Virus record (IMG/VR): IMGVR_UViG_3300006737_000208
Location: 1-24,323 of that record
Length of the DNA stretch: 24,323 bases
DNA from: a virus
Strand: one strand, 5' to 3'
The notes below the pieces were generated by a model, which saw nothing but the letters and a program-made list of their open reading frames with translations, had not been told where the DNA came from and made no database searches. Made by a program: the position numbers and the translations under genes. This document shows positions 8,483-24,323 of the stretch, piece by piece; the stretch's first letter is position 1; every line of letters begins with the position of its first letter.

Positions 8483-10954
8483 TTAAGTTGTTATACTTAA
8501 TTGGTTTAATTGTTTTGTTTCATTTACATCACTGTATTTAATTAATAGTATTAATTGTCCTGAGGCTCCTACAACAGTATTAGTACCAAATGACCAACTT
8601 CCTGCTAATGGACCTACAGATCCTACTTTAATACCAAAAACATCAGCTGTACCTCCTGGTACTGCTACTCCACTTGCTGCTACACTATTAGCTTGAGCTC
8701 TACCAAAATCATATATTTTAGAAGGAACTCCTGCTGTAATATCTTCAGGTCTAACTATAATCATTTCTAAATCACCTCCTGATCCCCAAGCACTAATTGA
8801 ACTAAATACATTAGGACTATTATTAAAATCAAAATTACCACCTGTTTGACCATTACTATATCCAGCAAATGTTCTATAAAAATATTGTGCTCCTGTAAAA
8901 CCACTATAGTCACCAGTATTACCTGTTATTAATCTACCATTTTGAACTTGTAAATTTGTATTTGTTAATGTTGCACTTGGTGTCCAAGCAACTTGAGTAA
9001 ATCCTGTATCTCTTTTATCCTCATCTAAGAATTTTTCTACAGTATTTGTAGACTGTGCTGAAACATATGAGTTAATTTTATATGTTGATATATTAAATGA
9101 AGGTGATGTAACATTACTTTTACCTGGTTTAGATACTGTTAAAGTAGCTGTTGGTAAAGATTGTCCTGAGTTTATGTTGGCTGTTAGGTTTAAATCTTTT
9201 GTAAAGTTTAAAGTATCATTAAATTGTGGTGTATCTCCACCTGTTGTACCTCCTGATGAGTTACTAAAATAACTAGAAGCCCAAGTAACATTACTTATTT
9301 GATAAACAGGATTAAACATATTATTTGCTACTCCAGGTATTGTAAATGTAGCTGTTTTTAAATATTGTATTCCACTTAAATAGTTAAATGTAGTAGATGT
9401 TTCTGTAACTGTACCTGGTATGACAGTTTGGTTAGGATAGTGAGTTGTATCACCTACCCAAAATAAGTTTTTATCATTGGTTTCTCCTGCTCCATTATCA
9501 GCTAGAATTTTATATTGGTATGATCCAGTATTATTTGAATTTAAATTTTGTTCTATTTGAGCGTTTACTTTAACCCAAAAAGTTTCATATTGAGCTATTG
9601 ATGTTATATTAATTGGAAGTGTTGGTCCAATACCATTTGTTAAAGGGCGGTTTGTTAAAACTGGGGATGTATTCCTAAATTTAACACTAGCTGTAACTCC
9701 TCCTTCTAATGTTCCAGCTACTCTATCACTATTTTTACCACCTCTAAATATTGTTGTTTCATCTGGGGTCTCTAAATCAAAATTTCCAGCTTTAATAAAT
9801 GGAGCTGATTGTCCTGCTGTATAACCATTTTGATACCAATGATCTGAAGTTAATCCATAAGCTAGTAATCCACTATATTGAGGGGTACCACTTAATAATA
9901 AATTTTTTCCTGTTAATGTTCCTGCTTTAGGAGGGGCTAAATCTAAAAATGCTTCACTAATTTCATCTATAGCATTTGCTAATGAAGTAGCACTTGTAAA
10001 TGTATCAAAAAAACCATCTGTATATCCTCCATCAGCGGGTTTTCCTATATTAATAGATTGACCACTAGCACTAATTGGAATTGGTGTTGATCCTGATACT
10101 ATTAATGAACCAGTGATCTCAGCTTCTCCTGTAAAAGGAAAACCTGAACCTCCATCAGTATTTTCAGCGTATGAAGCAGTTAAAGCATATGAGCTTGAAA
10201 TAGCATCTTCAACATATGAGGCACTTTCAGCTAATTCAACATAAGATGCAGATTGGGCATTTTCAACATATGAGGCACTTTCAGCTAATTTAACATATGA
10301 GGCACTTTCAGCTAATTCAACATAGGATGCTGTTTGAGCATTTTCAACATAAGAAGCAGTATCAGCATAAGAAGAGGATAATTCTTTAATTATTTCAAAT
10401 GATGCTGATATAGCATATGAAGCTGATAAAGCGTATGAAGCACTTAAAGAGTTATTAGCATATGAAGCTGATTGGGCTAACTCAACATAAGATGCAGATT
10501 GGGCATTTTCAACATAGGATGCTGTAGAGGCTACTCCTGATAGTGATCCAGTTATACCATTTGTCACTATAAATGAACCTGTAACTTGTAAATCATTTGT
10601 AGTGGCAAAAAATGAACCAGTTTGTTCAAATATACCACTTGTAGCTGATCCTGTATCTATAATTACTTCAAATTCATCACCATTTCCTTTTGTAAATGTT
10701 AAAGTATTTAAATCTGCTGATGCTGTTGTTAATAATGAACCTGTTGGAGTACTGCCTGGTCCTGGAGGTCCTGGAGGTCCTGGGGGTCCTGGAGAACCTT
10801 GTGGGCCCTGTGTGATAATGTCAACAATTTCAGTGGTTTGTTGCGTTATATCAACATTAGTATGTTTGGAGTCATCATTAACAGTAATTATATTATCTGC
10901 TTTCTGAACAGTTACTTTATTTGGACTGTTTGGATTTACATTTAGATCACTCAT
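8483..10954 (-). CDS. Large collagen-repeat and SASY-repeat fibre protein
   Basis: The largest protein in the window at 823 residues. Order of parts: a polar N-terminus (1-49), a collagen-like Gly-X-Y run at 50-67, a beta region at 70-140, a long repeat array at about 143-262 in which (S/T)ASY recurs mostly every nine residues, an FPFTGEAEITGSLIVSG module at 272-288 shared with the 454-residue fibre, then about 530 residues of Ser/Thr/Asn-rich beta structure ending KYSDVNETKQLNQLSITT. Collagen repeats would form a triple helix, so a trimeric fibre is expected. The C-terminal half is the likely binding tip. There is no nonamer close to the ATG, and the 12-nt spacing from the 136-residue gene suggests co-transcription from 11389-11397. 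Fibre identity is firm; the receptor is unknown. Confidence 0.85.
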   Translation of the reverse strand: MSDLNVNPNSPNKVTVQKADNIITVNDDSKHTNVDITQQTTEIVDIITQGPQGSPGPPGPPGPPGPGSTPTGSLLTTASADLNTLTFTKGNGDEFEVIIDTGSATSGIFEQTGSFFATTNDLQVTGSFIVTNGITGSLSGVASTASYVENAQSASYVELAQSASYANNSLSASYALSASYAISASFEIIKELSSSYADTASYVENAQTASYVELAESASYVKLAESASYVENAQSASYVELAESASYVEDAISSSYALTASYAENTDGGSGFPFTGEAEITGSLIVSGSTPIPISASGQSINIGKPADGGYTDGFFDTFTSATSLANAIDEISEAFLDLAPPKAGTLTGKNLLLSGTPQYSGLLAYGLTSDHWYQNGYTAGQSAPFIKAGNFDLETPDETTIFRGGKNSDRVAGTLEGGVTASVKFRNTSPVLTNRPLTNGIGPTLPINITSIAQYETFWVKVNAQIEQNLNSNNTGSYQYKILADNGAGETNDKNLFWVGDTTHYPNQTVIPGTVTETSTTFNYLSGIQYLKTATFTIPGVANNMFNPVYQISNVTWASSYFSNSSGGTTGGDTPQFNDTLNFTKDLNLTANINSGQSLPTATLTVSKPGKSNVTSPSFNISTYKINSYVSAQSTNTVEKFLDEDKRDTGFTQVAWTPSATLTNTNLQVQNGRLITGNTGDYSGFTGAQYFYRTFAGYSNGQTGGNFDFNNSPNVFSSISAWGSGGDLEMIIVRPEDITAGVPSKIYDFGRAQANSVAASGVAVPGGTADVFGIKVGSVGPLAGSWSFGTNTVVGASGQLILLIKYSDVNETKQLNQLSITT
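10169..10525 (-). repeat. Tandem 27-bp (nonapeptide) SASY-VENAQ repeat array inside fibre gene
   Basis: Tyrosines of (S/T)ASY or SSSY units fall at residues 147, 156, 165, 174, 180, 186 (Phe), 196, 202, 211, 220, 229, 238, 247, 256 and 262. The spacing is chiefly nine residues (27 bp) with some of six. Units alternate VENAQ, VELAQ/VELAE and VKLAE. DNA copies such as TTTCAACATA(T/G)GA on the plus strand are nearly identical, so copy number could change by slippage or recombination. Confidence 0.85.
10754..10807 (-). repeat. Collagen-like Gly-X-Y segment in fibre gene
   Basis: Six Gly-X-Y triplets (GPQ GSP GPP GPP GPP GPG) at residues 50-67, encoded by GC-rich CCT/GGA triplets that stand out from the AT-rich surroundings. 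This is a trimer-forming element seen in many phage fibres. Confidence 0.85.
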
Positions 10955-17576: not shown

Positions 17577-19469
17577 TTACTCTTTCAACTGTTTTTCATC
17601 AAGCAGATTATTTTTCTTTTTATCCTGTTCAAATACCAAATGTTTTTTAGTACGTTGTGGGGTAGGAGCTTTTTCTAACATATTCAAAGTTTCTAAAGCT
17701 AATGGAGAACCACCTTTAAATGATGGTTTTAATCTTCCATTATCATTATAATCTTTTTTAGTTCCTTCTCTACCTATTGGATCTTTCCCAAAAGCACTAT
17801 CTTGAGTATGTGATTTTGATAATTTTTTCTTTTTTCTTCCTAATGGTTTTTTCTCATTATATCCAGCAGGAACGTTAGATGGATCTGATTGTGTTCTACC
17901 CATTCCATATAACGAAGCTAAATCATGTGGTGTACCATAAGATTTACCTGTTTCTAAAGGATCATTACCTTCTGCCTCTATTTGTGCTAATCTGAAATTA
18001 CGTTTAGTATCTTGTTTAATTAAATCTCTATATTCATCATATTGATCCTCACTAAAATGGAATATATTTTCATATATCCAATCTGATGGGACTAACTTAC
18101 TATCTAACATAGCTTGAGCTAGAGTCATTTTTTCTGTCATCAATGCTACTCTTTCTTGATCATATATGATTGATGGAGTTGTCATTGATAATTCAAAATT
18201 TGTTAAATTTTCATCTTTATAACCCTGAGTATATAAATGAACTAATGCTATCTTTTGTAATTCAGAAACTACAATTCTTTGAATTCTTTCTATCGTTCTT
18301 GCAAATCTAATATCTTGAGCTGCTAAAGTAGCTTTACCTTCTGTGTTTTCATCATAACCCATAAATGCTTTAGGAACTTTTAAAGCAGCAAATAGTTTAT
18401 CTCTTAAATACTCTACATCAGCAATACCATCATATTGTAATCCTGGTGTAGTATCTATTTTAGTTGCTGTATCATTACCTCTAACTGGTATGTAAAAATC
18501 TTCTAACATGTTCTGCATGTTGTATTTAAGATTGTACTCTCCTGTTTGTTGATCAATATAAGGTGTACGTTTCATTTTAGAAATAGTCTTTTGCATAAAA
18601 TTTTCTACTTCTGCAGGTGGAATGTTACCTACATTCATATAAAAAACACGTTTCTCAGGTGCTCTAACTATTCTATGTATCAACATTGCGTCTTCCATTA
18701 GAACATACTGTTTAAACAACTTATGTGCTGGTTCTATGTATGCTCTACCATATGGGAGGAAATTAGTATCAGTAAGTAATCTAAAGTGGGCCATTTCATA
18801 ATTATCAAATATAATAGCATTACCACTTATTTCATTAGTGCTAGGTACATTATAAAATCCATATCCACCTGTTGATAATCCTTCAGGATCAAATTTATAT
18901 TGAATATCAGCTGGGTTATCTGGGTCGCCACCTTCTAATCTCTCAATATGAAATGCATTATAAGGTATAACATTGTAAACACCAAATTTTTCTGCTATTT
19001 CTAACTTAAGAAAGAAATCACCATACTTACACATATTCCTAATCCAAGGCCATAAATTAAATTCTATGTTTAATACATCATAAAATAAATTGTATAATAT
19101 TTTTTGAATATTTTCATCAGCTGATCTGATTTGAAGTACTTCGCCCATATCATTTTTAAGAGTTGACTCATCTGCTATAATATCTAAAGCAGAAGCTATA
19201 ATAGCATCTGTATCCATAGAATCATATTCTGAGTATAATTGTGGTCTTAATGTTTGGTAATTGAAGTTACTTTGATAACCATATAATGAAGTAGGGGATG
19301 TAGAATATAATCTATTAAATCTATCTACTAATGAGTTGTTTTCATATTCTCCAGAAGATTGGATTTTATTAATGTCTACAACTTTTAATTGGTCACCACC
19401 TTGATTACGAATTATTACATCCGTTGAAAATAATCTTTTTAATCTTGAAAATAATCTTGTATCAGCCAT
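17577..19469 (-). CDS. 20: Portal vertex protein, gp20-like
   Basis: A 630-residue portal protein; twelve copies would form the ring through which DNA enters and leaves the head. It begins MADTRLFSRLKRLFSTDVII and contains portal-family stretches such as ASALDIIADESTLKNDMGEV, NLWPWIRNMCKYGDFFLKLE, APEKRVFYMNVGNIPPAEVE and LFAALKVPKAFMGYDENTEG, the last being the conserved LKVPKA region. T4 gp20 is about 524 residues. Much of the extra length is a polar, Lys-rich C-terminal tail from about residue 510 (KKPLGRKKKKLSKSHTQDSA) that looks disordered. It follows the terminase directly, with a nonamer 13 nt upstream of its ATG. In T4 the sheath and tube genes lie between gp17 and gp20; here they do not. 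Confidence 0.95.
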   Translation of the reverse strand: MADTRLFSRLKRLFSTDVIIRNQGGDQLKVVDINKIQSSGEYENNSLVDRFNRLYSTSPTSLYGYQSNFNYQTLRPQLYSEYDSMDTDAIIASALDIIADESTLKNDMGEVLQIRSADENIQKILYNLFYDVLNIEFNLWPWIRNMCKYGDFFLKLEIAEKFGVYNVIPYNAFHIERLEGGDPDNPADIQYKFDPEGLSTGGYGFYNVPSTNEISGNAIIFDNYEMAHFRLLTDTNFLPYGRAYIEPAHKLFKQYVLMEDAMLIHRIVRAPEKRVFYMNVGNIPPAEVENFMQKTISKMKRTPYIDQQTGEYNLKYNMQNMLEDFYIPVRGNDTATKIDTTPGLQYDGIADVEYLRDKLFAALKVPKAFMGYDENTEGKATLAAQDIRFARTIERIQRIVVSELQKIALVHLYTQGYKDENLTNFELSMTTPSIIYDQERVALMTEKMTLAQAMLDSKLVPSDWIYENIFHFSEDQYDEYRDLIKQDTKRNFRLAQIEAEGNDPLETGKSYGTPHDLASLYGMGRTQSDPSNVPAGYNEKKPLGRKKKKLSKSHTQDSAFGKDPIGREGTKKDYNDNGRLKPSFKGGSPLALETLNMLEKAPTPQRTKKHLVFEQDKKKNNLLDEKQLKE

Positions 19470-19482
19470 AATGTATATATTA

Positions 19483-19491
19483 TATAAATAT
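19483..19491 (-). promoter_or_regulatory. ATATTTATA nonamer upstream of portal gene
   Basis: Exact copy, 13 nt before the portal ATG, in the short gap after the terminase stop. Confidence 0.55.
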
Positions 19492-21065
19492 TATAGAAGC
19501 CATTTAATGTCCTCTTCTCCACCAGAGTATGGGTTATCTATTTTAAATGGGTTTTTATCTGTTAATGGAGTATAAGCTCCAGTATGCGATGGTTTATTTG
19601 ATGAAATATTACTTAGCATATTTTTTGTTAAATCTAAATTTTGTTGTTTATATTTAAAAGCTGTGTCTCTCATATATTGACCTATTGCAAAACTCATTAT
19701 CAAATCATCATTATATCCTTGTTGAGCTTCAGGTCTACCATTTCTCCAAATAAAGGTTTTCATTTCATCTATCAATCTTTTTGATTGAATTGTAACTCCT
19801 TTATCAGATATAGATTCTCTAAATTTGCTAACAACCATAGGTCTTGTTCTGGATGACATTGTGAATCCAGGAGTCATTCTTGAAGTATCCATATATTCTT
19901 CAAAATATGAGTCTGCTCTTACTTCTCCACTTTTAGGTGAGTAATAAAAATTAGTATAACCTCTATCAATTATAGTTTGAATAGTTGACCATCCTATACT
20001 AGCATTTTCTACTACTAATAAAGCATTATTATATTCTGTTGCTATTCCCACTAATAAATGTCCATATTCTTTTGTTCCTAATTGTCCTCTATATTCTGCT
20101 ACTTGCACATTATTCTCAACATCTATAATATGAAATGCTGAAAAATCCTTTCCATCTCCTCTAGCTACATCAGCTACAACCATATAAGTCCTTGAATAGT
20201 CACATGGTTCCCAAACCCATAAATTACGATCTACCCCTCGCCTCTCCAAAGGATCTTTAATATAAGTTTTTTCATAAAATTCTATATATTCAGGATAGAA
20301 TACAATATCACCAGAAGTACTAAAATCACAATCACATTCTTGTGCTGCTAATCTAGGATCACCTAGTAATTCATCTTGTCTATCTCTCCACGCTTGATCT
20401 CTTTCTGGATGTACCATCCATGGTAATCTGATAGGCAAAAAGTCATTTTCTTTGTTTTCTGCTCTTACCCATGTTTGATGAAACCAATTTCCAGTACCAT
20501 AAGGAGTACTCAATGCTATACAACCCCCTCCAGTTGCTAATGTTTGTTGAGCTGAAGCCCAAATTTCTCCAATATTTTCAATAAATGCTGCTTCATCTAT
20601 TATTAGTAAACTAACTGCTTCTGATCTACCTGCATCTGAAGCTGCTGAGGTTGCTTTGATTTGAGAACCATTTGATAATCTTAGATTTAATTTATTATTT
20701 TCAGCTGCTTCTATTTTAAGCCATGAAGGTAAATTTTCATACATAAATTTAACCTTTGTAACCATGTTTTTAGCTGTTTCTTGTTTTGTAGCTATACAAA
20801 GTATATTTTTGTCTTTATGGAATATCATCAACCATAAACTAAAACCTGCTACTAAAGTAGATATACCTAACTGTCTAGCTTTTAAAACCATTGAGTATGG
20901 GTTTTCTTGAAATAAATTTAATACTTTTTCTTGAAAAGGAAATAATTGAAATAAAATTCTACCCCTTTGAGGATGTTGAATATTACAGTATTTTTTCATA
21001 AAATGTATAGGATCACTAGCACATTTTAAATATTCTTGCCTTATAACTGTTTTAATATCACTCAT
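19491..21065 (-). CDS. 17: Large terminase subunit, gp17-like
   Basis: A 524-residue DNA-packaging motor (ATPase plus nuclease; T4 gp17 is 610). The ATPase domain has the adenine-binding FPFQ near residue 42, a Walker A-type loop KARQLGIST at 62-70 aligned to T4 SRQLGKT, Walker B LLIIDEAAF at 153-161 with Asp157-Glu158, and the coupling motif ALSTPYGTGN at 184-193. The nuclease domain shows VVADVARGDGKDFSA (Asp299), LVVENAS (Glu353) and YNDDLIM (Asp453/Asp454), the three acidic positions of the RNase H-like fold. The usual Walker Lys before S/T is Ile68 here, a variant common in phage terminases. The start codon directly follows the previous stop. No small terminase gene is visible nearby. 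Confidence 0.97.
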   Translation of the reverse strand: MSDIKTVIRQEYLKCASDPIHFMKKYCNIQHPQRGRILFQLFPFQEKVLNLFQENPYSMVLKARQLGISTLVAGFSLWLMIFHKDKNILCIATKQETAKNMVTKVKFMYENLPSWLKIEAAENNKLNLRLSNGSQIKATSAASDAGRSEAVSLLIIDEAAFIENIGEIWASAQQTLATGGGCIALSTPYGTGNWFHQTWVRAENKENDFLPIRLPWMVHPERDQAWRDRQDELLGDPRLAAQECDCDFSTSGDIVFYPEYIEFYEKTYIKDPLERRGVDRNLWVWEPCDYSRTYMVVADVARGDGKDFSAFHIIDVENNVQVAEYRGQLGTKEYGHLLVGIATEYNNALLVVENASIGWSTIQTIIDRGYTNFYYSPKSGEVRADSYFEEYMDTSRMTPGFTMSSRTRPMVVSKFRESISDKGVTIQSKRLIDEMKTFIWRNGRPEAQQGYNDDLIMSFAIGQYMRDTAFKYKQQNLDLTKNMLSNISSNKPSHTGAYTPLTDKNPFKIDNPYSGGEEDIKWLL

Positions 21066-21524
21066 TTATAACATTGCAATTAGTGTAAGTATGGGTAATA
21101 TAATAGTACTTGTGAACCCAGCCAACTTAAGAAGTTTTTGTTTTCGAATTTCTTTTTTTTGTTCTTTAATTGTGTCTTCTTTAAAACCTAATTCTTTATT
21201 TTTATTGTCTAAAACTTCTTTAAAATTATCTATTTGATATTGTTGGTTATCATTTTTTTCAACTAGTTTAAATATAATATCTTTTTGGATTGATATTGTT
21301 TCTCCATTTAATGAATCTTTTTCTTTGTAAGTTGTAAGTAAACTATCAACGATTTCATACTCTAGTAAATCATTTAAAATGACTCTAGCGTCTTCAAGAT
21401 GCATTATTACCAAAGTATCCCCGTTTGAATTAACGGTTTCCTTTATTTCTCCTCTTAAGATAGTCTGAGAATGTGTTGGTAATATCATCGCTATCCATAT
21501 TAGTAACGATAGTAGATATTTCAT
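21066..21524 (-). CDS. Secreted/membrane-anchored coiled-coil protein, candidate outer partner of spanin-like pair
   Basis: A 152-residue protein with a signal peptide (MKYLLSLLIWIAMILPTHSQ), probably cut by signal peptidase I near HSQ; there is no lipobox Cys. A periplasmic beta/helix region (TILRGEIKETVNSNGDTLVI) and a long Lys/Glu coiled coil (LDNKNKELGFKEDTIKEQKK) follow, then a C-terminal hydrophobic segment (LAGFTSTIILPILTLIAML). Its first 95 nt overlap the end of the previous gene in another frame, as in Rz/Rz1 lysis gene pairs. The C-terminal anchor and lack of lipoprotein Cys differ from classical Rz1, so spanin is a hypothesis. It ends one base before the terminase ATG. Confidence 0.7.
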   Translation of the reverse strand: MKYLLSLLIWIAMILPTHSQTILRGEIKETVNSNGDTLVIMHLEDARVILNDLLEYEIVDSLLTTYKEKDSLNGETISIQKDIIFKLVEKNDNQQYQIDNFKEVLDNKNKELGFKEDTIKEQKKEIRKQKLLKLAGFTSTIILPILTLIAML

Positions 21525-21810
21525 TTCTTTTATTTTCTAATACCGAAAGTTTTTCTTCGGTTTGTTTTAATATAACCTCTGTACTATCTATAGCATAGAG
21601 CATAACTGTAATTTCTTCTTGTAACTTTTGGTTAATTTTATTTATACTATCATTTGATAATAAAAGTTTTTGATTTTCTTGCCTTAGAACATTAATTTCA
21701 GTCTCATATGTTTCTATTGGTGTAGAGGGTCTAAAGAGAAAGCTTAAAATTAAAGCAACTGCTAAAACTAATATAAAAATAATTTTTATATCTTTAAATA
21801 AATTTCCCAT
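21430..21810 (-). CDS. N-terminally anchored coiled-coil protein, candidate inner-membrane spanin
   Basis: A 126-residue protein with a short cytoplasmic N-terminus (MGNLFKD), one transmembrane helix (IKIIFILVLAVALILSFLF), then about 75 residues of coiled coil (YETEINVLRQENQKLLLSND, QKLQEEITVMLYAIDSTEV) and a basic C-terminus (YLKRRNKGNR). This is the layout of Rz-type inner-membrane spanins, which act at the last step of lysis. The next gene starts inside its final 95 nt in a different frame. No endolysin or holin is visible in the window, so a lysis role rests on topology and overlap only; other membrane roles are possible. Confidence 0.65.
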   Translation of the reverse strand: MGNLFKDIKIIFILVLAVALILSFLFRPSTPIETYETEINVLRQENQKLLLSNDSINKINQKLQEEITVMLYAIDSTEVILKQTEEKLSVLENKRNEISTIVTNMDSDDITNTFSDYLKRRNKGNR

Positions 21811-21820
21811 TTATTATAAC

Positions 21821-22108
21821 TTAATCTTCAGAATCATAATCTAATTCTTGATTAACACCTATATTAAGAGCTGCTTCCATTTCTTTTTCAGCTGCATTGT
21901 CCCTCTCAGCTTCAAGTCTTTTTTTCTCAGCATTTAATTTTTTTAACATATTAATTGCTAATTTTTTAGCTTCATTTCCTTCAGCATTTTTATACATGTC
22001 TAAATGTTTTGCTATTTCAGCATTAACTTTATCTAAAGTAGTTGACTCTTCTGATAGAATTGATTTAATCTCTTCTTTGATTAATTGTTTTAGTTCAGAT
22101 TTTTTCAT
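21821..22108 (-). CDS. Small coiled-coil protein of unknown function
   Basis: A 95-residue protein starting MKKSELKQLIKEEIKSILSE, an N-terminal helix of a type I recall at the start of many small marine phage proteins. A helical, Lys/Glu/Ala-rich body (MLKKLNAEKKRLEAERDNAA) and an acidic tail (NQELDYDSED) follow. There is no signal peptide or membrane segment. It has the nonamer 13 nt upstream and lies 10 nt before the 126-residue membrane gene, so it may begin the transcript for the spanin-like pair and the terminase. A small-terminase (gp16-like) role can be imagined from position but nothing in the sequence shows it. Confidence 0.65.
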   Translation of the reverse strand: MKKSELKQLIKEEIKSILSEESTTLDKVNAEIAKHLDMYKNAEGNEAKKLAINMLKKLNAEKKRLEAERDNAAEKEMEAALNIGVNQELDYDSED

Positions 22109-22121
22109 TATAATATTTTTA

Positions 22122-22130
22122 TATAAATAT
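22122..22130 (-). promoter_or_regulatory. ATATTTATA nonamer upstream of 95-residue gene
   Basis: Exact copy, 13 nt before the ATG at 22108, overlapping the last base of the kinase-like gene's stop codon. Confidence 0.55.
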
Positions 22131-22660
22131 TAGGGATTTAATGCCTCTCGCACTGATGCAATACGTTCCTCAATACTCCCCTCAATTGTATGTATGTATT
22201 TAATTTTATGGTTATATCTATTTAAAAACATCTTAATAGTAAAATCAATTAAATCTCTATACTCAGCATTTGTTTCTCTAACACCATTATTTTCTATTTC
22301 AACTCCTTCAGGTGAAACATAAAATACATAATCATATTCATGTAATAAATCAGCTGCTAATTGTGTAAAATTATCTTTTTCAATATAATTCATTGATTTT
22401 GAACATTGAGCAAATGCCATAACATCTAAAACTGTTCTATCTGTTATAATATTTTCTTGCATTAATTCAGCTGATCTTTCTGATAGAAATATTGTTTGTC
22501 CTTTTAATGTTGAATCTGTATTTAATGGGATGCCTAAATTCATTAAATGTTTAGAACGTTCTGTTCTACATTCATAATCTTTGAATTCCTTTAATTTTTT
22601 TAATTCTTTTACAAGTGTGGTCTTACCTACACTCATTGTACCGCAAAAACCTATCTTCAT
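22130..22660 (-). CDS. P-loop ATPase/kinase, AAA_28 or NadR-kinase-like
   Basis: A 176-residue P-loop protein starting MKIGFCGTMSVGKTTLVKEL, with Walker A GTMSVGKTT at residues 7-15. TDRTVLDVMAFAQCS at about 73-87 holds the DR and Asp typical of nucleoside/nucleotide kinases, and DYVFYVSPEGVEIENNGVRE with the following AEYRDLIDFTI resembles the lid region with Arg residues. This matches the AAA_28 / NadR-like ribosylnicotinamide-kinase and dNMP-kinase type of fold. The substrate could be a nucleoside, a nucleotide or nicotinamide riboside; the sequence alone does not decide. It starts 3 nt after the stop of the 90-residue gene. A cytoplasmic metabolic role during infection is likely. Confidence 0.8.
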   Translation of the reverse strand: MKIGFCGTMSVGKTTLVKELKKLKEFKDYECRTERSKHLMNLGIPLNTDSTLKGQTIFLSERSAELMQENIITDRTVLDVMAFAQCSKSMNYIEKDNFTQLAADLLHEYDYVFYVSPEGVEIENNGVRETNAEYRDLIDFTIKMFLNRYNHKIKYIHTIEGSIEERIASVREALNP

Positions 22661-22663
22661 AAT

Positions 22664-22936
22664 TTAAAATCTAGATGTTGCTTTCATTGATGGGTTTTTA
22701 TACCAAGGTAAACCTTCTTTACTTTGTTGATATTCTTTAAACTCTTCATGTGTTTTACTCATTCCAAAAAGATAATACTCTTTTTTAACTGATCTGTCAC
22801 TTGAGTTTATAGGTTCGATAGCTGGGCCATCAGGATTATGATGTAACCAATTAGTATTGCCTGTTTCTCTAAATAAATGATGAATAGCGTTATTCACTTT
22901 TATTTTTTTATATTCATAAATCTTTTCTTTTTTCAT
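22664..22936 (-). CDS. Small DGPA-motif protein of unknown function
   Basis: A 90-residue protein. Residues about 30-60 (WLHHNPDGPAIEPINSSD, then KKEYYLFGMSKTHEEFKEYQ) match a pattern seen in many phage and bacterial small proteins: H-x-x-DGPA-I-E, an aromatic strand, a Gly turn, and then a helix with EEF. The N-terminus is basic (MKKEKIYEYKKIKVNNAIHH). The function of such proteins is unknown to me. It has a one-mismatch nonamer 15 nt upstream and is closely followed by the kinase gene, so the two are probably co-expressed. It lacks membrane or secretion signals. Confidence 0.65.
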   Translation of the reverse strand: MKKEKIYEYKKIKVNNAIHHLFRETGNTNWLHHNPDGPAIEPINSSDRSVKKEYYLFGMSKTHEEFKEYQQSKEGLPWYKNPSMKATSRF

Positions 22937-22951
22937 ATAACTTTTATTTTA

Positions 22952-22960
22952 TATGAATAT
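22952..22960 (-). promoter_or_regulatory. ATATTCATA, one-mismatch nonamer upstream of DGPA gene
   Basis: Lies 15 nt before the ATG at 22936; differs from consensus at the sixth base on the coding strand. Confidence 0.35.
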
Positions 22961-22992
22961 AAGTAAAAAATTTTATAAAGCCAAACTGATTG

Positions 22993-23238
22993 TTAGATAT
23001 TTTCTATATATAGAATAAAATCATCTATTACTTCCTTTTGTTCTTTGTTAAGCTTATTTTTATAATTTTCTAAAACTAACATAGGATTAAGTGATTCTAA
23101 TATTAATGGTTTGATTCCTGATAATGTACTTTCACATAATTTTGTATATTCAGATGTATAGATATTATCATCTCCATAGTCTTCAATATCATTAAGATAT
23201 TGAGTTATTCTTAGTGGTATATTATTTGAGAATTTCAT
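22993..23238 (-). CDS. Small protein of unknown function
   Basis: An 81-residue acidic protein, MKFSNNIPLRITQYLNDIED through KNKLNKEQKEVIDDFILYIE, likely helical in its C-terminal half. It overlaps the end of the DUF6884-like gene by 17 nt in a different frame, which suggests translational coupling and argues that it is real. There are no recognised motifs, signal peptide or membrane segment. It may act with its upstream neighbour, but this is only a positional guess. Confidence 0.6.
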   Translation of the reverse strand: MKFSNNIPLRITQYLNDIEDYGDDNIYTSEYTKLCESTLSGIKPLILESLNPMLVLENYKNKLNKEQKEVIDDFILYIENI

Positions 23239-23701
23239 AAATACGTTTTTTTAATTTAATAAAGGCTTCTTTAAGTTGTTTTATTTGAGAATTTAACCAA
23301 CTTAATCTTTCACCCATACGTTTACCATTCATTGGATTAACAATATTTTCCTCAGGTATATGTTCTTTTAAAGGTTTTATATATTCACTTCCGGCTAAAA
23401 ATACAAAAGTATCAGATTCTGGTTTGATTCCTTTATCATTCATTTGAGATATAACAGTTTCAGCCCATTGTTCTTTTTGGTCTTTTTTAAAATCTTTAAG
23501 AGTCATATCATATGGCTCTAATTGTTTATCTAATGGTACTAGATGGTGTTTAGCTGATAAAATGTAAGTTTTGTCAGGTTTAAGAGATTCTCCATATGCC
23601 TTTGTTTTTTGAAACATAGGAGAGGGTGAGTATAAATCCTGAGCTTCTGCTGGTTTATCTAACTTTGCTTTGGTACAACTTAATAATACTACTTTTGCCA
23701 T
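23222..23701 (-). CDS. DUF6884-like protein
   Basis: A 159-residue protein starting MAKVVLLSCTKAKLDKPAEA. The family marks visible are LLSCTKAKL at 5-13, DLYSPSPMFQKTKAY at 22-36, the central YILSAKHHLVPLD at 46-58 followed by EPYDMTLKD, and AGSEYIKPLKEHIPEEN near 103. This arrangement (SCxK, LYxSxxF, SAKHxLV, PYDxTL) is how I recognise DUF6884 proteins, found in phages and bacteria. Their function is not established to my knowledge; conserved Cys, Lys and His suggest an enzyme. The last 25 residues are a basic helix (LKEAFIKLKKRIYEILK). The nonamer lies 10 nt upstream, and its end overlaps the next gene by 17 nt. Confidence 0.75.
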   Translation of the reverse strand: MAKVVLLSCTKAKLDKPAEAQDLYSPSPMFQKTKAYGESLKPDKTYILSAKHHLVPLDKQLEPYDMTLKDFKKDQKEQWAETVISQMNDKGIKPESDTFVFLAGSEYIKPLKEHIPEENIVNPMNGKRMGERLSWLNSQIKQLKEAFIKLKKRIYEILK

Positions 23702-23710
23702 CTTGTTTTA

Positions 23711-24323
23711 TTATAAATATAAACTGTTTTCTAATTGTTGATTTTTGTTTTTTAATTCAGATTTTAATATACTTTCAGCAACATATGTACCTTGTGCTCC
23801 TGATACTGTAATACCTCTTGCACTTAAAGCATCACCTACAAAATATATATTTGGATAATCTTCTAAACTTAAATCATCATAGTTTACTAATGGTTCTGGG
23901 CTTAAATATTTTACTTCTGGCATGTATATTCCCCAATCATTACCTAATGTTGGAAATACTTCTTTCATATCATTAATAAAATCTTCAATATATAAAGCAT
24001 AGTCACCTAATGCTTCATATAATGTATCCATACTATCTACTACTTTAGTTTTAACATAGTCACCTTCTGAGGTTTTAGATGGTACTCTGTTAGATGGAGA
24101 AAAATATGTACCTACTCCATCTTTTTGTAATTTTTTAACTGCTTCTCTTGACCAATCAAATGGTTTATCTATGCCTCTAATTTCCATTAGTATACCAAAA
24201 TTAGTCATATCATTTCTATATGCTTCATCTTTTTTAGCATGACCATTGTAGCTGTAGTCTCCGTATGTGTGTTCTGCTGCTACATAAGCTGCATTATTGT
24301 TAGTACAAAATGATCTTAATGAA
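23711..24323 (-). CDS. FAD-dependent dehydrogenase, C-terminal part (gene runs off window)
   Basis: The frame is open from the stop at 23711 to the window end, so at least 203 residues are encoded and the true start lies outside. Visible parts: SLRSFCTNNNAAYVAAEHT and GDYSYNGHAKKDEAYRND, matching the FCMCPGG-x-V and x-NG-x-S region of uncharacterised FAD-dependent dehydrogenases (COG2509 type); MTNFGILMEIRG, a conserved substrate-domain strand; and near the C-terminus YPNIYFVGDALSARGITVSG followed by AQGTYVAESIL, the classic FAD-closing GD motif and helix. The N-terminal GxGxxG dinucleotide fold would be upstream and is not seen. In this family the Cys-Pro segment is usual; here TNNNA replaces CPGG. 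The substrate is unknown. Oxidoreductase identity is fairly firm, and phage-encoded copies look unusual. Confidence 0.8.
   Translation of the reverse strand, partial: SLRSFCTNNNAAYVAAEHTYGDYSYNGHAKKDEAYRNDMTNFGILMEIRGIDKPFDWSREAVKKLQKDGVGTYFSPSNRVPSKTSEGDYVKTKVVDSMDTLYEALGDYALYIEDFINDMKEVFPTLGNDWGIYMPEVKYLSPEPLVNYDDLSLEDYPNIYFVGDALSARGITVSGAQGTYVAESILKSELKNKNQQLENSLYL
23712..23720 (-). promoter_or_regulatory. ATATTTATA nonamer upstream of DUF6884-like gene
   Basis: Exact copy, 10 nt before the ATG at 23701; the coding strand continues ATAAAACAAG to the start, nearly the same as before the gp13-like gene. It overlaps the stop region of the dehydrogenase gene. Confidence 0.55.

Follow-up and report, generated by a model that had tools for sequence, protein, structure and literature searches.

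The window analyzed here is a linear virus fragment taken at its full length of 24,323 bases, whose minus strand carries T4-type head genes (terminase, gp20 portal, gp21-type protease, and gp23 capsid). At its edge, on the same strand, lies the 3' part of a gene for an FAD-dependent oxidoreductase, followed downstream by a DUF6884 gene, two small genes, a P-loop kinase-like gene, three small genes, and the terminase gene (Table 1). The oxidoreductase frame runs off the virus record at its 5' end, the last position of the record being 24323; about 250 residues, the N-terminal 55% of the protein, fall outside the contig. A first-pass annotation had read the gene as phage-encoded and adjacent to phage genes, with the N-terminal FAD fold outside the window; both points are borne out. 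The 203-residue fragment, which terminates ...FVGDALSARGITVSGAQGTYVAESILK..., matched no Pfam or NCBIfam model when searched alone, and its sole match among the PHROGs was PHROG 12409 'dehydrogenase' (E 7e-5). Elsewhere in the window, a fibre-like protein of 823 aa (8483-10954, minus strand) contains many repeats of the ASYVENAQ/ASYALSAS type.

Table 1. Coordinates of features around the FAD gene, in the window unless a contig is named
Feature	Position	Strand	Remark
FAD-dependent oxidoreductase (viral branch of COG2509), C-terminal 203 codons and stop	23711..24322	minus	cut at its 5' end by the contig
SFC-TNNNA	24290-24313	minus	seen in the window fragment
TNNNA segment	24290..24304	minus	directly after the invariant Cys of SFC
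C-terminal FAD-binding motif VGDALSARGITVSGAQG	23789..23839	minus
TATTTATA box, overlapping the 3' end of the FAD gene	23712..23719	minus	promoter-like; 18 nt before the DUF6884 gene start
DUF6884 protein (PF21818, PADLOC PDC-M57A)	23222..23701	minus	9 nt 3' of the FAD gene; occasional neighbour
81-aa protein without assigned function	22993..23238	minus	overlaps the DUF6884 gene
90-aa protein, small family cluster c8	22664..22936	minus	after the FAD gene in many relatives
P-loop nucleoside/nucleotide-kinase-like protein (PF13521; PHROG 2107)	22130..22660	minus
Terminase large subunit (T4 type)	19491..21065	minus	survey anchor
TATTTATA octamers	546, 3395, 7615, 8473, 11389, 17557, 19483, 22122, 23712	minus
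DUF6884 or look-alike	L095:11576-12067		near the FAD/kinase cluster
DUF6884 or look-alike	L187:1485-2006		near the FAD/kinase cluster
FolE2, QueC, DUF6884 in a row	L085:50-2979		directly before the FAD gene
RNA leader	L018:4146-4260		upstream of the FAD gene

Contig L003, from a second metagenome, is 99.94% identical to the window over 5 kb (19289-24323), repeats the junction and lengthens the FAD reading frame to 396 residues. The presence of the same junction in a separate metagenome contig rules out a chimera at the edge. The N-terminal part of the protein and the whole leader described below were taken from relatives, the nearest full-length ones being 85-87% identical over the shared part.

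The enzyme family and the TNNNA segment

Relatives of the enzyme are encoded on at least 593 viral contig stretches; complete ones are mostly 427-458 aa long, and a few are longer via fusions. Full-length relatives match PHROG 12409 end to end (E 6e-25 to 3e-22), and a profile of 15 relatives compared with the PDB ranked the COG2509 structure 3NLC first (7e-8), with SFCTNNNAAYVAAE aligned opposite SFCMCPGGTVVAAT. Both matches agree with the COG2509 type proposed from the fragment at the first pass. The full-length relatives contain the motifs GAGVAGxNAATKL, GAGGWSDGK, WHVGTD, GVRFE, SFC, NGHA, and GDALSARG, and the N-terminal Rossmann FAD site, GxGxxG/N, is present (58 relatives with a readable N-terminus). 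These intact N-terminal motifs, together with the PHROG 12409 and 3NLC matches, rule out a broken N-terminus or another family. With the edge chimera, these were the grounds for refutation listed in the first-pass annotation, and all of them fail.

The core residues GAGxxSDGK, H-x-G, GVRxE, FC, NG, and GD/GE are kept in relatives, and FC, NG, E, and GD are also visible in the window fragment. Among 21 aligned rows of viral, archaeal, Bacillota, and Bacteroidota sequences, 20 or more agree at 29 positions, including GxG, GAGxxSDGK, H126, R219, E221, F253-C254, N274-G275, E385, and G412. Because these positions are kept across viral and cellular rows, the flavin site and the core look intact. 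The AlphaFold model of the relative L018 (pLDDT 87, pTM 0.86) has 3NLC as its top match (Z 31.7 over 391 residues, rmsd 2.8), the next structure reaching Z 20.4. Sequence and predicted structure both indicate that the viral protein is a complete FAD-dependent oxidoreductase, a new variant of a known family that forms a virus-specific branch of COG2509; flavin binding and redox activity are predicted for it. The same predicted fold, at 20% identity, is found in BFVD entry A0A3G4ZPX6 of the giant virus Terrestrivirus, suggesting that the family also reached eukaryotic viruses.

The first-pass annotation had also remarked that the usual CPGG segment appears replaced by TNNNA while the C-terminal FAD motif is intact. 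The replacement and the intact motif, which is one residue shorter than in cellular forms, both stand; CPGG as the usual state does not, since the nearest short cellular forms have TCPRG or MNPxG. RSFCTNNNAA is found in all 81 readable marine copies, and the corresponding loop is RTFCVNHGTA in Campylobacter phages and RTFCVNSNAA in L085, a Methanothrix MAG contig. In cells, long forms have YSFCMCPGG and short forms RTFCTCPRG or RTFCMNPxG. The FCxCPGG loop of the long form is thus absent from short cellular forms as well as from marine copies, so CPGG marks the long form only. The Cys of SFC (Cys254) is invariant; the viral copies have lost the Pro, the Gly, and the second Cys, and their loop is one residue longer. 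The four-cysteine cluster CPx..CxxCxxC, located before GAGxxSDGK, is found in none of 59 viral proteins, against 18 of 19 archaeal short forms. In the L018 model, TNNNA is a turn joining two strands of the substrate-side sheet. As the segment is fixed in every readable marine copy and its neighbouring Cys is invariant, we read it as a remodelling, neither a lesion nor decay nor a local oddity, in which the TNNNA hairpin beside Cys254 would shape the substrate pocket and substitute for the CPxG loop. The altered activity or substrate suggested at the first pass may follow from it.

Occurrence, neighbours and origin of the gene

In a survey independent of the FAD gene, 80 contigs were fetched by terminase similarity, and the count covered 36 of them that were new and whose upstream sequence measured 2.5 kb or more. 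The kinase gene was present in all 36 and the FAD gene in 34; upstream sequence in the two exceptions was limited to 2.9 and 4.8 kb. Median dN/dS was 0.20 for the FAD gene, 0.21 for TerL, and 0.25 for gp20, indicating purifying selection; mean identity in these contigs, a set that favours TerL, was 76% for the FAD gene and 80% for TerL. The FAD gene is a core gene of this lineage of abundant, uncultured marine T4-like phages and not a sporadic extra. Its retention by nearly all sampled members of such a lineage suggests that the enzyme does something these phages need.

The neighbourhood of the gene varies in part. DUF6884 or a look-alike lies near the FAD/kinase cluster in the window, L095, and L187, and scores above the cut-off in only 2 of 17 records; the FolE2-QueC-DUF6884 order in L085 suggests a 7-deazaguanine context for it. 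In L021, L027, and L028, the FAD enzyme continues in frame at its C-terminus into the small HNxxGPA protein (cluster c8) that elsewhere is a separate neighbour, hinting at a physical link between the two. A phage SET-domain protein (PF00856, E 5e-13) is encoded between the FAD gene and the kinase in L094 (11221-11619). Late proteins that are otherwise unlike one another (window 21821-22108; L094:7919-8527; L090:4567-5193; L093:17052-17573, and others) have in common an N-terminal MKKSxLRxIIKEEIxxxL-like peptide, possibly a capsid-targeting signal.

A maximum-likelihood tree including cellular homologues and other phage copies, a check proposed at the first pass, set the viral rows apart: the marine, Campylobacter-phage, and L085 proteins fall on one side of a branch (support 100/98) and the cellular ones on the other. 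The tree program warns of long branches, and the deep branches join long-branch groups, so the depth and the nearest relative of the viral clade are unsure. A pattern scan of 84,980 species genomes matched only three contigs, one of them from a Flavobacteriaceae MAG, 74% identical and with its genes in phage order. The form present on Bacteroidota chromosomes is instead the long one with CPGG (best profile E about 1e-12). A Bacteroidota host for the lineage is plausible, and a guess, given that one of the three matches is informative. Among cultured phages, the only matches were Campylobacter phages and human-fecal 'Bacteriophage sp.' records (MT836034, MT836377, and related; UNVERIFIED). The query protein of the fecal records has 79% identity to a plasmid gene of Lachnospira eligens; because of this likeness, they are probably bacterial DNA and were left out of the phage count.

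These results bear on the proposal, made at the first pass, of an auxiliary metabolic gene. A metabolic-type oxidoreductase in a phage might suggest a recently acquired host gene, and an auxiliary gene of the ordinary kind is host-derived and sporadic among related phages. Here, instead, the gene has 34 carriers among 36 contigs and a viral clade of its own. The near absence of relatives from the species genomes, with phage gene order around one of the three, and the long CPGG form of Bacteroidota, from which the viral clade is separate, likewise speak against recent acquisition, which we regard as highly improbable; the core-gene status of the enzyme replaces the auxiliary label.

The RNA leader of the FAD operon

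In complete relatives, a hairpin (P1), a linker, a terminator hairpin, and TATATT stand in this order before the start codon of the FAD gene or of its operon. This leader occurs in L018 and at equivalent sites upstream of the FAD gene in more than 100 other viral contigs; no copy was found in the window, since that stretch lies beyond its edge. P1 consists of a variable stem of 4 bp, a G-C pair, and the fixed loop ATTCATAGC; it begins 10-25 nt past the stop codon of a preceding gene that differs between relatives. The linker, of 17-34 nt, is mostly A-rich, and the terminator hairpin (median 11 bp, median -17 kcal/mol) is followed by a T run. In 80 of 89 leaders, a spacing of exactly 19 nt separates the terminator loop TTTGG from TATATT, and the start codon comes about 25 nt past TATATT.

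The leader precedes all 21 terminase-anchored FAD genes having upstream sequence. An independent DNA-pattern scan of viral_contigs, in which the loop and CTGTGG were the sole fixed parts, returned 115 readable matches. A FAD gene follows 110 of them, within 200 nt in 91 cases and further away in 19; one of the others is at a contig end and four, without a stem, are chance-like. L054 seems to have lost P1. No Rfam family matched the element at E 5 or 1, and one Streptococcus sRNA model covers the terminator only, far below its threshold; the search for a leader DNA match in cultured phages was also negative, and no similar element was seen by eye upstream of the FAD homologue of Campylobacter phages. 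Other genes of the lineage have a different signal. The octamer TATTTATA, which reads as the T4 late-promoter box in reverse complement, has 10 coding-strand copies in the window, and 9 of them lie 18-32 nt before a start, serving 9 of the 25 genes. It also precedes gene starts in relatives, but was never found upstream of the FAD gene (0 of 45).

RNAalifold on a plain MAFFT alignment recovered P1 only, and P1 and P2 were for this reason counted on a fixed-register composite. The composite rows were hand-picked after selection on loop letters and landmarks, with off-register and chance matches left out, and gave 66 distinct sequences; shuffles do not correct for relatedness, sliding the register does. 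P1 is paired in 99.7% of cells and all five of its pairs change on both sides (one pair reads AU 22, CG 18, UA 18, and GC 7), a covariation attained by 0 of 500 shuffles. P2 is a pseudoknot in which the P1 loop AUAG(C) pairs with (G)CUGU at the terminator foot, and variants keep the pairing: AUAAC/GUUGU, AUAUC/GAUGU, ACAUC/GAUGU, and AUUAC/GUAGU. It shows six double-sided compensations at two pairs (as many in 0 of 500 shuffles, and at most 3 in slid registers), and 91% of its cells are paired against 48% in a slid register. Its covariation score of 0.087 is barely above that of one slid register (0.081), and its variants are few, with 7 of 66 rows varying at the most informative pair and the fifth pair missing in 30 of 66, so the pseudoknot is more weakly supported than P1. 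For P1 and P2 together, the score is 0.514, against 0.150 in 500 shuffles and at most 0.082 in slid registers. This covariation indicates that the leader is a structured RNA; it is without a match in Rfam and goes closely with a single gene. The 3' strand of P2 overlaps terminator nucleotides in 79 of 82 folded elements and shares at least 2 nt with the terminator foot in 75 of 82; the relatives therefore combine a covarying structured domain with an expression platform overlapping it, as riboswitches and attenuators do, and a regulated terminator or a riboswitch is plausible.

Because of this overlap, the pseudoknot and the full terminator should compete. Late transcripts from upstream would reach the leader terminator, where the pseudoknot would favour read-through and its absence termination, and the FAD operon would otherwise be transcribed from a promoter embedded in the terminator. 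Bacteroidota promoters have TTTG at -33 and TAnnTTTG at -7. The terminator loop and TATATT may be read as a promoter of this type, TTTGG resembling the -33 box, and from this likeness the FAD operon may have a promoter inside its terminator. The position of P1 close to the upstream stop makes the RNA part of upstream transcripts, barring an undetected promoter inside the upstream gene, and the RNA may even belong solely to the 3' end of that gene.

Two readings of the leader follow. It may be a new class of conditional cis-regulatory RNA, in which competition between an H-type pseudoknot and an intrinsic terminator would switch the FAD operon in response to a small molecule or a protein, possibly the enzyme's own product; we put this forward tentatively, at somewhat under even chances. 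It could also be passive punctuation, namely a terminator for the upstream late transcript with a pseudoknot protecting the 3' end of that transcript, plus a promoter of host type for the FAD operon, with no conditional regulation. The start of P1 at 10-25 nt from the stops of different upstream genes, the nearly fixed TTGG-19-TATATT spacing, and the lack of an evident separate promoter between the upstream stop and P1 are in keeping with punctuation. A plain terminator, however, would need neither the fixed loop nor a pseudoknot, and the element keeps with the FAD operon though the upstream gene differs. Passive punctuation is a serious possibility that still falls short of an even bet. At the level of the whole locus, we consider it probable that this marine lineage combines a virus-specific COG2509 core enzyme with its own RNA, terminator, and promoter control region.

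Function and comparison with known systems

The enzyme would bind FAD and pass electrons between a pyridine nucleotide or another donor and a small substrate sitting under the substrate-side sheet. Our first guess is a step in nucleotide or purine-base metabolism, based on the kinase, on the DUF6884/QueC/FolE2 context in one relative, and on the Campylobacter phages. The literature gave little guidance: no paper was found on phage COG2509 enzymes or on the function of VP0956, and no known substrate was found for COG2509, cells and plants included. The plant protein At4g30720 and rice TCD5 are presumably COG2509 members. The only phenotypes found are those of these two, which affect growth and chloroplasts and are termed putative oxidoreductase or monooxygenase (PMC2869320, PMC5014166).

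The enzyme might instead serve purine or DNA-base modification, for example in a 7-deazaguanine or inosine pathway, and not central metabolism. This would suit the FolE2, QueC, and DUF6884 genes before the FAD gene of L085, the DUF6884 gene adjoining the FAD gene in the window and near it in L095, and the kinase that is always nearby. The Campylobacter homologues come from a phage genus that we take to be Fletchervirus. Base modification would suit these homologues as well, for the genus of their phages is described as replacing dG with deoxyinosine in a passage of PMC8713573 citing Crippen 2019. Against it, QueC of the preQ0 pathway was not found in 23 virus records, mostly fragments, that included the complete Campylobacter phage CP81, and DUF6884 is as infrequent as noted above; we hold base modification to be rather unlikely. 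A catalytically dead relative, retained as a structural or regulatory flavoprotein, would account for the loss of the CPxG loop and the cysteine cluster from all viral copies and for the fusion to a small domain in three contigs, yet the FAD motifs and the core residues common to cellular forms are kept and dN/dS is about 0.2, which makes inactivity improbable.

Compared with the long cellular COG2509 form, represented by 3NLC (VP0956 of Vibrio parahaemolyticus), the viral form has the same whole fold, GxG Rossmann site, GAGxxSDGK, H-x-G, GVRxE, FC, NG, and C-terminal GD/GE motif. It differs in the absence of an N-terminal domain of about 90 aa, in the changes from CMCPGG to CTNNNA and from NGWS to NGHA, and in an identity of only 20%. 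The short cellular form, found in many archaeal genomes of the phylum of G014 and in the Lachnospira 'FAD-dependent protein', resembles the viral one in length, FC and NGHS motifs, core residues, and the lack of the extra N-terminal domain; the viral copies are without its CPx..CxxCxxC cluster and CPRG/NPxG loop and are about 30% identical to the Lachnospira-type proteins. The PHROG 12409 dehydrogenases of Campylobacter jejuni phages (CP81, NCTC12673, and relatives) share the side of the tree, the full-length profile match, and a loop, FCVNHGTA, without CPxG, but are 28-30% identical, adjoin dUTPase and spanin genes, and showed no such leader upstream. The uncultured Caudovirales phage protein A0A6J5M0P4, 'COG2509' by database annotation only, is 43% identical with a very similar predicted fold, and no study of it was found. 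By revealing which residues the enzyme can do without and by linking it to a kinase operon, the phage copies narrow the question of what the family does.

The RNA leader, located in relatives outside the window, is a more surprising result than the enzyme. Finding its trigger could tell what the enzyme uses or makes, and would demonstrate that lytic phages are capable of metabolic or stage sensing. H-type pseudoknot riboswitches of the preQ1-I-like kind consist of a small hairpin and an A-rich linker, with the loop paired to a 3' segment overlapping a terminator. The leader differs from them in loop sequence, linker length (17-34 nt), gene context, and the lack of an Rfam match, and shares their layout of hairpin, A-rich linker, and loop-3' pairing that overlaps the terminator.
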